A stretch of 49,728 bases of DNA from Fibrobacter succinogenes. Its GTDB lineage: Bacteria > Fibrobacterota > Fibrobacteria > Fibrobacterales > Fibrobacteraceae. Every line of letters starts with the position of its first letter. Positions within the stretch are counted from its first letter, which is position 1. The DNA is taken from contig CACWNW010000015.1 in the NCBI GenBank assembly GCA_902762305.1, positions 1 to 49,728 on the forward strand. Direction: 5' to 3'. Below are positions 42,742 through 49,393 of this stretch, piece after piece. The notes beneath the pieces are model-generated. The model did not search any database, was not told where the DNA came from, and was given only the letters and a program-made list of their open reading frames with translations. Position numbers and translations under genes: made by a program.

Positions 42742-44127
42742 CTATTTCAGCTTCTTCAGTTCATGCCGCAGCATGAGCACGCCGATGATGGCCGCACCCG
42801 CATCGGCGATGGGCTGCGCGAGGAACACTCCCTTCAGCTCGAAGAAGTGCGGCAGCACGAGCAAGAAGGGAATCAATAGAATCACTTGACGGCAGGCGTT
42901 CAGGAACATCGACCTGAGCGCCTTTCCTGTACCCTGGAAGAAGCTTCCCGAAATCAGGCCGAAGGGAATCATGAAGAATGCCGCGCCGAAAATCCGGAGG
43001 GCCCATGCGGCGACTTCTTGCAAGCGGAGGTCTTTGGGCGCGAAGGGAGCGACAAGCGCCTCGGCTTGCCACATCATGATGCTCCAAGCGATAGCCATGA
43101 AGCCGAGCGCATAAATGAAGGTGAACTTGAGGGTCGCCTTCACGCGGTTATTGAGGCGAGCTCCGTAGTTGTACCCGATAATCGGCTGCGTGCCGTGTAC
43201 GAACCCGAGGAGAGGCAACAAAATAAACGAGGCGATGCTGTTCACGATGCCGAATGCCGATATCGCCATGTCGCCGCCCGAAAGCGCACCCGTATCGTGC
43301 AGGCTCACGTTGCCGTAGGTGGTGAGGCTCCAGGCAAGGATTGCATTCATCAGGCTGTTGCACACCTGCATGAGTGAAGGCGGGATGCCGAGGATGATAA
43401 TCTTGCGCACGTATGCGAAGCGCAATTTCATGTGGCGCCAACGGATGCGGATGGGCGTCCCCTTCTTCACGAAGAACTGCGTGATGAGCGATGCCGACAC
43501 CAGCTGCGAGCAGATGGTCGCCCATGCGGCACCCTCGATGCCCCAGTGGAACTTCATGATGAACAGCCAGTCGAGAATGATGTTCGTGACGGCGCCGATG
43601 ACTTCGCGGAACATGGCGGTTTTCGGGTGTCCCATCGAGCGGATGAAGTGGTTCATGCCCGGGGCGACCGTCTGGAATACAGCGCCACACAGCAAGATTC
43701 GCATGTAGCTGCTTGCGACAGGGAGCGTCTGGTCGCTGGCGCCGAAAAGCTTGAGCAGCGGCTCCATGAAGATTTCGCCGAGCGTGAACGTGGTGACGGC
43801 CATCAGCAACAGCAGTGAGAACGAGTTGTTCAGGATGATGCTTGCCTGGATGTACTTCTTTTGCCCGAGGCGTATGGCGAACAGCGTGTTGCCGCCCACG
43901 CCGATCATCATCGACATCGCCATGATGAAGAGTGTAATCGGGAAGCAGAGCGTGATTCCCGCGATGCCGAGACTTCCGACTCCCTGGCCCACGTAAAGGC
44001 GGTCCACTATATTGTACAGCGCGTTCACCAGCATGCTGATGATGGAGGGTACCGAGAACTGCAAGACCAGTTTCGGGATGCTCGCGGTGCCGAAGGAATT
44101 AAGCTTGTTGGAGTAGAATTCGCTCAT
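42742..44127 (-). CDS. MATE family exporter
   Basis: 461 residues with about twelve transmembrane helices in two similar halves (IPKLVLQFSVPSIISMLVNALYNIVDRLYVGQGVG starts the first). It matches the MATE/NorM-DinF branch of cation-coupled drug and metabolite exporters in the inner membrane. Start ATG 44127 is chosen because the upstream extension lacks family support. TAAATT on the minus strand (44139-44144) leaves an 11-nt gap. It is divergent from the TIGR02147 regulator across a palindrome, so it may be that regulator's target. Confidence 0.9.
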   Translation of the reverse strand: MSEFYSNKLNSFGTASIPKLVLQFSVPSIISMLVNALYNIVDRLYVGQGVGSLGIAGITLCFPITLFIMAMSMMIGVGGNTLFAIRLGQKKYIQASIILNNSFSLLLLMAVTTFTLGEIFMEPLLKLFGASDQTLPVASSYMRILLCGAVFQTVAPGMNHFIRSMGHPKTAMFREVIGAVTNIILDWLFIMKFHWGIEGAAWATICSQLVSASLITQFFVKKGTPIRIRWRHMKLRFAYVRKIIILGIPPSLMQVCNSLMNAILAWSLTTYGNVSLHDTGALSGGDMAISAFGIVNSIASFILLPLLGFVHGTQPIIGYNYGARLNNRVKATLKFTFIYALGFMAIAWSIMMWQAEALVAPFAPKDLRLQEVAAWALRIFGAAFFMIPFGLISGSFFQGTGKALRSMFLNACRQVILLIPFLLVLPHFFELKGVFLAQPIADAGAAIIGVLMLRHELKKLK

Positions 44128-44180: not shown

Positions 44181-44204
44181 CATATGAAACATTTGTTTCA
44201 TATG
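44181..44204. promoter_or_regulatory. perfect palindrome between divergent MATE and TIGR02147 genes
   Basis: CATATGAAAC-ATTT-GTTTCATATG is a perfect 10-4-10 inverted repeat. A weaker related site GTTTCATAAAAC (44265-44276) touches the -35 of the regulator's promoter. This arrangement suggests one DNA-binding dimer controlling both directions. Confidence 0.65.
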
Positions 44205-44278
44205 GTTGAAATTTGTGTAGAATTTTCTAGAAATTTGTGATTTTAGTTAAAATTTATTGATTTTGTTTCATAAAACTA

Positions 44279-44307
44279 TTGACTTCTTCGAAAAAGGGTT
44301 GTATATT
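44279..44307 (+). promoter_or_regulatory. promoter of the TIGR02147 gene (leaderless)
   Basis: TTGACT (44279-44284), 17-nt spacer, TATATT (44302-44307). The first ATG follows 5 nt later (44313), a second at 44316, so the transcript would start at or inside the start codon. Confidence 0.65.
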
Positions 44308-44312
44308 TGAAA

Positions 44313-45146
44313 ATGATGAAACCGATTGTCGAATACATAGACTTCCGCCTTTACATGCGCGATTTCTACGAGGAACGCAAGCGCCGCTCCGCTTTCACGT
44401 GGCGCGAGTTCTCGAGGATTGCGGGCTTCTCGTCGTCTGCATACATGAAGGTCGTGTGCGATGGCGGGAGCAAGCTCAGCAAGATTGGCGTGGAGCGCGT
44501 GGGCGCGGCGATGGGCCTCGAGGGCTTCGAGCTGGACTACTTCAGGGCCATGGTACGCTATGGCCAGGCCGATACCGAAGAGAAGAAGAAGGCCGCCTAC
44601 GAAGACATGCTCGCTGTCGCCAAGCAGTACAAGGTCCGTGTGCTCTCGGGCGACCTGTTCGAGTATTACGATTCCTGGCGCAACCCGGTGCTGCGTGAAC
44701 TCGCCCCGCTCATGCCGGGTGCCACTCCGGGCGAAATCGCGAAGAAAATCTATGTGGAGACTTCGGCGCAGGAAGTCCGCAATTCGCTCGATTTCCTTAC
44801 CAGGACGGGCCTCCTGAAGAAAAATGCCGACGGTACGCTTGCCCAGTCGGAATCCTCGGTGAAGGGCGCTCCCGATGCCACGCGCCTCGCCCTGAGGGGC
44901 ATGCACCGCCAGATGTCGGAACTGGCCACGCCCGCGCTCGACCTCCCGAAAGAAGAACGCAATTTCAGCGGCGTCACGATGGGCGTTTCTCGCGAGACCT
45001 ACGCTCGTATCGTGGAGGCCCTCAACGAATGCCGCAAGAAGATTATTGCAATCGCTGCCGAAGATAAGGATATCGACCAGGTCTATCGAGTCAATCTGCA
45101 ACTTTTCCCGCTCACTAGGAACCTTAGGGAGAACGAAAATGCGTAA
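44313..45146 (+). CDS. TIGR02147 family probable transcriptional regulator
   Basis: 277 residues of the TIGR02147 family, which is expanded in Fibrobacter. The N-terminus carries an HTH-like region (FSRIAGFSSSAYMKVVCDGGSKLSKIGVERVGAAMGL); the middle and C-terminal parts match the DUF4423-type domain (VRNSLDFLTRTGLLKKNADGTLAQ, SGVTMGVSRETYARIVEALNECRKKI). It probably regulates nearby exported proteins; its ligand is unknown. Start ATG 44313 or 44316; TTG 44307 lies inside the -10. Its last 8 bp overlap the next lipoprotein gene. Confidence 0.88.
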   Translation: MMKPIVEYIDFRLYMRDFYEERKRRSAFTWREFSRIAGFSSSAYMKVVCDGGSKLSKIGVERVGAAMGLEGFELDYFRAMVRYGQADTEEKKKAAYEDMLAVAKQYKVRVLSGDLFEYYDSWRNPVLRELAPLMPGATPGEIAKKIYVETSAQEVRNSLDFLTRTGLLKKNADGTLAQSESSVKGAPDATRLALRGMHRQMSELATPALDLPKEERNFSGVTMGVSRETYARIVEALNECRKKIIAIAAEDKDIDQVYRVNLQLFPLTRNLRENENA

Positions 45147-45954
45147 CATCAGGTTGTTTATCATTGCACTGTTCGGTGTCGCGTCCCTGTGGGTGGGCTG
45201 TTCCGAGTCCACGAAAGTGGTGGGAACCTCCGAAGAAGAAAACGAGATTGTCGCCCGCGGGGAATCTTCGAGCTCGCCGGAGCCCGAAGCCACATTCTAT
45301 AGTTCTTCACAGGAAGTCGAATCGAATTCGAGTTCTAGCACCGAATGGCGAGGTTCTGTAGATTCTTACGAGACTTCGAGCAATTCCATCGAAAGCTCCG
45401 GCAGCATAGAACCGCCCCCAGAATCTTTTGGTTCCAGCAGTTCGGGAGGGCCGGGTACAGTAGATGGCGGGATCGATAATCCGAATACGATTGGTTATTA
45501 CGTCGCTACGTTTGCCCTCGGTAGCGTGCAGTTCGATAGCGCCGTCAAGGCATCGGCTATTGTCGATATGGAAGAACCCGGGCTGTATCAGATTACGAAG
45601 GAAAATACCGGTATGCTGAAATCGATGTTCCCGAGGGCCGTCAAGAGGTATAAAGAGCTTGTCGCTGCCATCGAGAATGACATTGCAGAATGCAACCTCT
45701 ACCTGTATAATGTACAGGGCAGTGCGCAGGCGGCGGGGCATATCATGACCGGAATTACGCCCGATACGGTGAGAGTCCTCGATGTCGTATCGGAAAATTG
45801 CGAATCTACGAACGGAAAGATGTTCGGATTCCTCTTCACCTACTGTGGAGAGATGAACGGCGAACCGAAACTTGTGCGTACTACCGTCGAAAGCGAAATT
45901 CTCGAGAACAAATGCCCGAGTGGGCAAATCAATGAATGGATCAAGGAAAATTAA
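45139..45954 (+). CDS. Ser-rich surface lipoprotein coupled to the TIGR02147 gene
   Basis: 271 residues. The start ATG 45139 lies inside the end of the regulator gene, with AGGGAG upstream, so the two are translationally coupled. Lipoprotein signal (SLWVGC, Cys at about 21), followed by SES, a linker of Ser runs (about 40-115) and a C-terminal domain of about 150 residues with four cysteines and a helical segment (FPRAVKRYKELVAAIENDIAE). No family recognised. The pairing suggests it is under the regulator's control or signals to it. Confidence 0.8.
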   Translation: MRNIRLFIIALFGVASLWVGCSESTKVVGTSEEENEIVARGESSSSPEPEATFYSSSQEVESNSSSSTEWRGSVDSYETSSNSIESSGSIEPPPESFGSSSSGGPGTVDGGIDNPNTIGYYVATFALGSVQFDSAVKASAIVDMEEPGLYQITKENTGMLKSMFPRAVKRYKELVAAIENDIAECNLYLYNVQGSAQAAGHIMTGITPDTVRVLDVVSENCESTNGKMFGFLFTYCGEMNGEPKLVRTTVESEILENKCPSGQINEWIKEN

Positions 45955-45992: not shown

Positions 45993-47099
45993 ATGAAAAG
46001 GAAATTTACCAACATGGCTTGCGGGATTGCCGCTGCCTCAATCCTCTTGCTTGCATTGACTGCCTGCGATAGCGAAAGCCCTAGTGCCCCGAGCAGCGGC
46101 GTCGAGAAGGAGAAGCCCTCTGCCGTTGAGGGTTCCGGTACAGACGAGGTTTCCAGTTCCAGCGAGGAAGTGAAGGCCAGGTGCGATTCTTTTTCGCCCG
46201 AGTGCGGATATACCGAAAAAGAGCTCTGCGAGATGGGACATTTGGGCTACTGCGGCAAAGAACCTATCGAAGTCAGTTCCTCTTCTGAAGTCGGACAGTC
46301 TTCCAGTTCGTTTGTTGCACAATGTGATGCGTTCATGCCCGAATGCGGATACTCCGAGGAGGAACTCTGCCAAATGGGCTATTCCAACTATTGTAACTCC
46401 GTATCGAGTTCTAGCGGAAAGCAGCCGGTAACTTGCAGGCATATTACGGATTATGACGGAATGACTGCCACCGGGAACTGCAATAGCGATACGGACCAGG
46501 AAACTGTTACCGACTGTGTGACAGGCAAGGGATTCAGGTGCGTCATGAACTACTGGACGGAAATCGATATTTGCCCCCCGGGTAGCAATTGTAGCAACGA
46601 TACTATTTCTGGCACCCCCTGTGACAGGAACGGTGAAACGCTGGTTATTGAAGACGACGTCTATCAGTGTAACAATGGCGTGTGGCAGTACCTGCCGCCT
46701 CCGATGGGCGAGAAGATTGTTGAAGAAGCGACGGACGTGAGCGCGATGGGCCGTGGCGGCCCTGCAGTTTCCCCGCGTGTCGTGAAGGTGTTGAACGCCA
46801 GCGGGAGCGTCACCTTCCGCGATGACGGCGTCAGTGTTGACAGCCGCTGCACCTTCAACGGCCTGAAGGCTGAACTTCGGGGCGACACCCTGTACGCCAC
46901 CATCGAGTATCCGGGATGCACGACGACCGGCGGGTCCATGGGCGTCATCACGTTCACCCTTAGCAGTGATTTTGCCGATGCGAAATACATCAAGTACGAA
47001 GACAGTAAGTACTTCAAGGAAATCCATGTAACGGACGAACTGCTGCCTTGCGGGAACACTTCCTCTTGCAATGCCTGCCGCGAAGGAGCTGCCTGCTAG
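45993..47099 (+). CDS. lipoprotein with two tandem cysteine modules
   Basis: 368 residues. AAAGGAG precedes ATG by 8 nt. Lipoprotein signal (ALTAC, Cys at about 25, then DSES). Two near-repeat modules of 24 residues, C-D-x-F-x-PECGY-x-E-x-ELC-x-MG-x-x-x-YC, at about 63-86 and 109-132, are separated by SSSS linkers. A third cysteine-rich part (about 147-235) and a beta-rich C-terminal domain follow. Disulfide-stabilised surface protein; function unknown. Confidence 0.78.
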   Translation: MKRKFTNMACGIAAASILLLALTACDSESPSAPSSGVEKEKPSAVEGSGTDEVSSSSEEVKARCDSFSPECGYTEKELCEMGHLGYCGKEPIEVSSSSEVGQSSSSFVAQCDAFMPECGYSEEELCQMGYSNYCNSVSSSSGKQPVTCRHITDYDGMTATGNCNSDTDQETVTDCVTGKGFRCVMNYWTEIDICPPGSNCSNDTISGTPCDRNGETLVIEDDVYQCNNGVWQYLPPPMGEKIVEEATDVSAMGRGGPAVSPRVVKVLNASGSVTFRDDGVSVDSRCTFNGLKAELRGDTLYATIEYPGCTTTGGSMGVITFTLSSDFADAKYIKYEDSKYFKEIHVTDELLPCGNTSSCNACREGAAC

Positions 47100-48793: not shown

Positions 48794-49393
48794 ATGCTTT
48801 ACAGACACTGGAAAAAGATTGCGCTTGCGCTGACCGGTTTTTTCTGGGCAAGCTGCGAGGATACCGTGACCTCGACTGCTCCCGAGTATGGTTGCCCGAG
48901 CGATGGCTGCGGACAGGGCCCTGTCGACGACAGCAGTTCTAGTAATGACGGCTCCGTAACGTCCAGTTCCAGCGAGACTTCCTCCAGTTCCAGCAGCGAC
49001 ATTGCCATGTCCATGCCGCTGTACGGCGTTTCGGAGAAGGTGTTTGATTCTTCCAGTTCCACAGAAGAATCGTCGAGCAGCTTTACTGAGGTCGCCCCTG
49101 CATACGGGGTGCCTGGTCAAATAGCCTGTTTCGAGGACCCTGCCGCCAAGGAGTCTCTAGGCCAGGGTGTGAGAACCGTTTACAGGTGCGATGACGGTGT
49201 GACCTGCCAGGAAGAGGTGAATGAAAGATGGGTGCCGGAATCTGAATGTATCGAAGACGTTTGCCCTGAGTATGGCGTAGTCGCCATCAGCGAAAAGACC
49301 TACACCTGCGATGACGGCAACACCTACCATTATGCCGAGTTTATTTCCCGCTACAAAAAAATGGGAACGTATAAAGTTGATGAGGACGAATAA
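48794..49393 (+). CDS. YG-motif Ser-rich lipoprotein, first of a tandem pair
   Basis: 199 residues. AAAGGAG lies 7 nt before ATG; TATATT at 48770-48775 is a likely -10. Signal MLYRHWKKIALALTGFFWASC with Cys at about 21, followed by acidic EDT. Four short units [E/L/A]-YG-[C/V] (PEYGCP, PLYGVS, PAYGVP, PEYGVV) are spread among Ser-run linkers and a C-terminal part with paired cysteines (YRCDDGVTCQEE, YTCDDGNTYHYAE). Function unknown. Its N-terminus is repeated in the next gene. Confidence 0.78.
   Translation: MLYRHWKKIALALTGFFWASCEDTVTSTAPEYGCPSDGCGQGPVDDSSSSNDGSVTSSSSETSSSSSSDIAMSMPLYGVSEKVFDSSSSTEESSSSFTEVAPAYGVPGQIACFEDPAAKESLGQGVRTVYRCDDGVTCQEEVNERWVPESECIEDVCPEYGVVAISEKTYTCDDGNTYHYAEFISRYKKMGTYKVDEDE

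Follow-up and report, generated by a model that had tools for sequence, protein, structure and literature searches.

Which genes does a TIGR02147 regulator of Fibrobacter succinogenes control, and do the overlapping lipoprotein gene, a divergent MATE exporter gene and the inverted repeat between exporter and regulator genes belong to one unit? This question is raised by a locus within a stretch of 49,728 nucleotides, which is referred to as the window in the following. No description of the function of TIGR02147 (Fsuc_second)/DUF4423 proteins was found in the literature searched, and the name TIGR02147 itself was not found there either, while DUF4423 is named in one paper; this literature does not describe the lipoprotein pairing, the operator architecture or the recognition rule presented below. 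With a probability of about 0.8, the locus is best explained as a self-regulated lipoprotein operon, belonging to a set of 34 paralogues in the genome, and its regulator would bind its own two-site operator (Table 1).

Table 1. Annotated and predicted features of the locus; positions are those of the window.
Feature	Coordinates	Strand	Remarks
MATE-family transporter gene, divergent	42742..44127	-	Pfam MatE match 7e-44
Site 1, inverted repeat CATATGAAACA-TT-TGTTTCATATG, putative operator for a dimer	44181..44204		core TATGAAAC-N4-GTTTCATA at 44183-44202
Site 2, half-site GTTTCATA	44265..44272	+	70 bp 3' of site 1 right arm; 6 nt 5' of -35
Predicted sigma-70-type promoter TTGACT-17-TATATT	44279..44307	+	-35 at 44279-44284, 17 nt, -10 at 44302-44307; 10/12 consensus bases
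TIGR02147 regulator (DUF4423) gene	44313..45146	+	ATG 44313 or 44316; stop TAA 45144-45146
Lipoprotein 1 gene	45139..45954	+	ATG 45139, stop 45952-45954; signal peptide, lipobox Cys21, motif VVGTSEEENEIVA, Ser-rich linker, C-terminal domain ~108-271
Lipoprotein 2 gene, third gene of the predicted operon	45993..47099	+	38 nt 3' of lipoprotein 1; kept downstream in >20 relatives

The regulator gene and the lipoprotein genes joined to it

The regulator (276 aa) is a member of the TIGR02147/DUF4423 family and matches both models over the full length, with 288.6 bits against TIGR02147 (cut-off 50; residues 2-269 on positions 1-271 of 272) and 96.8 against DUF4423 (PF14394; cut-off 30). Its structure model (pLDDT 91.6) comprises a Cro-type HTH domain at residues ~8-90 (counted from the start at 44316), a winged-helix-like domain at ~108-183 and long C-terminal helices, so that the protein is modelled with two domains of the DNA-binding type. 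Best fold comparisons reached Z 8-9 for the Cro-type and Z 7-8 for the winged-helix-like domain, and modelled similarity at Z 7-9 is taken here to indicate a common arrangement and nothing further. HTH_3 and HTH_31 were each matched by 8 of 130 relatives, PHROGs contributed one marginal match to a transcriptional regulator (E 0.007), and a search of the plasmid collection with the regulator as query gave zero matches. As the predicted transcription start (~44314) falls on the regulator ATG, the transcript is likely leaderless, which fits the description in the initial annotation, and similar promoter geometry is predicted for many paralogues.

The regulator gene overlaps the lipoprotein 1 gene by exactly 8 nt, as had been claimed. 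The description of the product as a Ser-linker lipoprotein is likewise borne out, since its signal peptide ends in a lipobox Cys (...ALFGVASLWVGC; lipobox ...SLWVGC), followed by VVGTSEEENEIVA and the Ser-rich linker. Cys21 is invariant in 30 homologues, and lipidation is predicted. The linker is disordered in the structure model, while the C-terminal domain is well modelled; no convincing match to this domain was listed in the fold comparison, which does not imply a new fold.

The lipoprotein 2 gene had been overlooked in the initial annotation. In about ten relatives (L071, L075, L076, L078-L082, L089, and L090), the lipoprotein 1 domain is joined to the C-terminal part of lipoprotein 2 in a single protein, and this fusion suggests that both lipoproteins work together. 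Because lipoprotein 2 is conserved downstream and partially fused, we consider regulator, lipoprotein 1 and lipoprotein 2 as the unit. A match to the FISUMP (TIGR02145) domain was found neither in lipoprotein 1 nor in lipoprotein 2. Close to the end of the window (48794-49393 and onward), a tandem pair of lipoprotein genes with related products (MLYRHWKK..ASCEDT and MFYRHWKK..AGCDDA) occurs without a TIGR02147 gene.

Pairing of TIGR02147 genes with lipoprotein genes

The genome carries 34 TIGR02147 genes, and in every case the next gene on the same strand, either overlapping or at a distance of at most 17 nt, encodes a lipoprotein with signal peptide and lipobox Cys, as judged by eye for all 34. 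A comparison of the neighbourhoods of all TIGR02147 members had been proposed as a way of refuting the idea of a linked unit; the idea withstood it, with a strong repeated half-site found in 14 of the 34 in addition to the lipoprotein. The pairing and the shared half-sites support the proposal that regulator and lipoprotein form a putative autoregulated unit.

The coupled lipoproteins have their N-terminus and the regulator in common, including a motif of the type AG[GTAS][ST]xE[TPE]xN (AGxxxExN) behind the lipidated Cys. When a profile of this N-terminus, built on 31 coupled lipoproteins, was searched through the genome, 32 coupled lipoproteins and two further lipoproteins of the same operons were matched at E <1e-4; weaker matches chiefly covered the signal peptide, and the full-length motif occurred almost nowhere else in the genome. 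Exceptions are the lipoprotein of L012, which has no motif, and that of L004, where the motif lies farther from the Cys. A motif-like sequence is also present in a lipoprotein at C2:261662, which does not directly follow a regulator. Behind the N-terminus, FISUMP domains were found in 10 of the 33 coupled lipoproteins scanned and carboxypeptidase-regulatory-like domains in 6, along with matches to Laminin-G, CBM_4_9 and pectate lyase. Correlation of the lipoprotein motif with the regulator domains was low (Spearman 0.115 with the winged-helix part, ~0 with the remaining domains), which makes a paralogue-specific link unconvincing, and the connection from lipoprotein to regulator appears to be a genetic one only. 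At L131 (C8:182000-196500), two operons each carry a regulator followed by two large FISUMP-type lipoproteins, all with the motif after the Cys.

The pairing recurred in three genomes from outside the genus, one of a different genus in the same family, one of a different family in the class and one of yet another family in the phylum. Across all genomes examined, 242 of 247 TIGR02147 genes passed a loose lipoprotein test compared to 29 of 94 positions after other genes, a high background that includes some true members of such operons; a strict version of the test missed real cases. Of 100 sampled Fibrobacterota genomes, 90 contained TIGR02147, which was absent from all 14 control genomes; most Fibrobacter genomes examined have ~20-40 copies. 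No TIGR02147 match was obtained in any sampled genome of genus g16 of family f7 (2.0-2.9 Mb), which we attribute to natural loss; most other genera of this family have several to dozens.

Predicted operator sites and promoter architecture

The sequence between the MATE and regulator genes had been described as a perfect 24-bp palindrome. The inverted repeat is indeed present (site 1), but its perfection is confined to two 11-bp arms, since the TT between them lacks self-complementarity. The window contains a single TATGAAACN4GTTTCATA core (chance expectation 0.07 with up to 3 mismatches). In a pattern search of the whole 3.6-Mb genome, the core was found at two places when spacers of 2-7 were allowed; the reversed control pattern did not occur. 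The initial annotation also pointed out a second, weak site next to the -35. Existence and position of this site 2 are confirmed, but it is less weak than stated there, since it is an exact copy of one site 1 half-site at 70 bp from the right arm.

Relatives of the locus illustrate how both sites change. In the orthologues L065 and L066, the palindrome of site 1 is kept while the flanks have diverged, and orthologues with 63-67% lipoprotein identity retain GTTTCATA at both sites. Site 1 of close relatives reads TATGCAAC..GTTGCATA, and site 2 has likewise changed to GTTGCATA. Overall, half-sites of relatives read GTTGCATA, GTAGCATA or GTATCATA, with sites 1 and 2 usually altered jointly.

The same spacing recurs at other promoters of the genome. 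When direct repeats of any spacing were sought in the 34 own promoters, 14 genes showed a repeat at 70-73 bp, compared to 0.14 per spacing elsewhere (Poisson p 3e-15). Many promoters of the genus Fibrobacter show the pattern TATxxxAC-N4..6-GTxxxATA around -120 relative to the start codon, with a single GTxxxATA around -50. Where the site pair was clear (50 genus promoters), 28 have a TTGA 13-15 nt 3' of the start of the promoter-proximal half-site. Half-site sequences vary among paralogues and are of the identical type within one promoter. Under strict criteria, about half of the 34 own promoters lacked the two-site pattern, among them those of the divergent subfamilies (L001, L004, and L030-L034), and a comparison of site 2 with far-upstream sequence, unrestricted in position and orientation, was too noisy (p 0.085). 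In a scan of three genomes outside the genus, the peak at 70-73 bp was absent; the operator architecture may consequently be genus-specific and the gene pairing phylum-wide.

Two further loci of the genome deserve mention. An exact second copy of the core, TATGAAACCCCATGTTTCATA, is located at C23:26106-26126 (L095/L130) in the intergenic region of a divergent pair, of which one gene encodes an outer-membrane-like protein and the other is a small ORF, with no adjoining TIGR02147 gene. Its 5-bp spacer is closer to the operator of L012 than to that of the window, and the locus is a possible regulon member. At L132 (C14:106000-120500), four tandem TIGR02147-lipoprotein units (L013, L018, L010, and L021) display another promoter layout, featuring longer leaders with an AGGAGG-like site and a less clear half-site pair.

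Covariation of regulator residues with operator bases

Mutual information was calculated between every regulator column (~270) and each half-site base for 38 regulators with clear sites. The best column for half-site base 3 was residue 41 (z 12.1) and that for base 4 was residue 46 (z 11.4), which are located at the start of and inside model helix 43-48, the recognition helix of the Cro-type domain. With all sites combined, A3 accompanies 28 of 29 instances of Pro41, and a base other than A3 accompanies 19 of 20 instances of another residue, Ser, Gly or Asp41 being paired with bases other than A at this position. The association (28:1 and 1:19) has a p-value of 2e-11, which is not corrected for ancestry; the counts include sequences sharing ancestry, and independent switches are few (~five). 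Partial exceptions to the rule are L161, L014, and L092.

In the genomes G010 and G098, which were outside the discovery of the rule, A3 was present for 8/8 Pro41 proteins and 0/4 others. On the tree of the C-terminal domain, we counted 6 residue changes and 6 base changes, and joint changes amounted to 8 compared to a permuted mean of 20.5, which indicates that several independent switches coincide. It is mainly this covariation, together with the coinciding switches on the tree, which leads us to hold that TIGR02147 proteins bind their own operators, and the regulator of the window very probably binds its own promoter. Gene pairing, operator architecture and the coupling of operator and recognition helix are all seen directly in the sequences.

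Discussion

As judged from sequence comparison, the most likely role of TIGR02147 proteins is autogenous regulation, each of its own dedicated lipoprotein operon. In the mechanism that we propose, a dimer of the two-domain protein would bind the inverted repeat ~120 bp upstream of its own start codon, and a further protomer or a half-occupied dimer would take the single half-site by the -35, at a distance of 70-73 bp or about seven helical turns. The bound protein could then control transcription of its own gene and of the joined lipoprotein genes, and reading of a different half-site by each paralogue would allow the copies to exist side by side with little cross-talk. From the same features we infer transcriptional coupling within the operon and a surface location of its products, along with binding and autoregulation.

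The sign of this regulation can be argued both ways. Sites at ~-45 and ~-120, none of them covering the start, favor activation, whereas the near-consensus promoter favors repression. Autorepression by DNA looping, i.e., dimers at the -120 palindrome and the -45 half-site closing the promoter until an inducer binds to the C-terminal domain, is a plausible option at somewhat less than even odds: it would be consistent with TTGACT-17-TATATT, with the spacing of about seven helical turns and with the relationship of the HTH domain to HigA antitoxins and to repressors of the phage type, but the -10 and the start are free of sites, and site 2 lies upstream of the -35. Autoactivation, in which polymerase would be recruited from site 2 with help of the palindrome and positive feedback could switch each lipoprotein on in part of the population, appears just as tentative. 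Here, site 2 is placed as for a class II activator and, in the subfamily L006, L007, and L151, a half-site replaces a recognizable -35; however, the -35 is already near consensus in L022 and about ten paralogues.

The initial annotation had also included the MATE exporter in the unit, i.e., as regulon member of a bidirectional operon, which we regard as unlikely. The divergent arrangement is kept in the strict orthologues L064/L022, L065, L066, and L126, and in this small clade the palindrome would overlap the position where the MATE -35 is expected. However, a MATE relative adjoins only these four; none was found beside ~28 other relatives of the regulator-lipoprotein pair, some of them with short flanks, or near any of the 33 other paralogues within the flanks examined. 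By this comparison, the MATE gene is to be seen as a local neighbour outside the conserved module. It is even less probable that palindrome and half-site are read by some other regulator and that TIGR02147 responds to a signal without relation to its own promoter: this option, which we consider very remote, draws on the fact that binding of TIGR02147 to the operator is a prediction, but recognition-helix residues 41 and 46 of TIGR02147 covary with the operator, and genomes that had no part in deriving the rule followed it too.

The proposed autogenous operon resembles the autoregulated operons of Cro/C1-type regulators, e.g., HigA antitoxins, restriction-modification C proteins or phage repressors, to which the HTH is weakly related by profile and fold and which share an inverted repeat in their own promoter read by the regulator, as predicted for TIGR02147. 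In contrast to these, the TIGR02147 unit features no toxin or restriction gene, an extra winged-helix domain, a lipoprotein partner, a site pair 70-73 bp apart and dozens of copies with different specificities. A HigBA-type toxin-antitoxin system was considered and rejected, as the adjoining genes encode lipoproteins and the MATE transporter rather than a toxin, and the PADLOC defence library gave zero matches for the three operon proteins.

PrgX-type regulators sense peptides cut from lipoprotein signal sequences. Here, likewise, an HTH regulator would be functionally linked to a lipoprotein. However, PrgX ranks low in the fold list of the regulator as a weak Foldseek match (E ~0.3, TM <0.2), evidence for a peptide signal was not found and the cell envelope is different. 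Peptide-sensing regulators of the PrgX/RRNPP type bind the peptide by a TPR-like C-terminal domain; the C-terminal part of the TIGR02147 regulator aligns best with winged-helix proteins. A regulator that senses the export of its own lipoprotein, with AGxxxExN being read before or during export by a TIGR02147 pathway and each operon measuring its own surface product, is improbable in our view. If true, export sensing combined with positive feedback would enable a cell to select from dozens of lipoproteins for its surface.

FISUMP (TIGR02145/PF09603, Fib_succ_major) has been described as extracytoplasmic and suggested to be a cohesin analogue (PMC4704652). Lipoproteins 1 and 2 share with the FISUMP-bearing coupled lipoproteins the pairing with TIGR02147, and not the domain itself.

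The covariation yields a testable rule for DNA recognition and a natural set of apparently orthogonal operator-regulator pairs. Moreover, the evidence would give a large paralogous family a role, with TIGR02147 proteins as dedicated regulators of surface-lipoprotein operons. Such operons include those encoding FISUMP proteins and those with lectin-like and carbohydrate-binding domains, which may matter for attachment to plant fibre.
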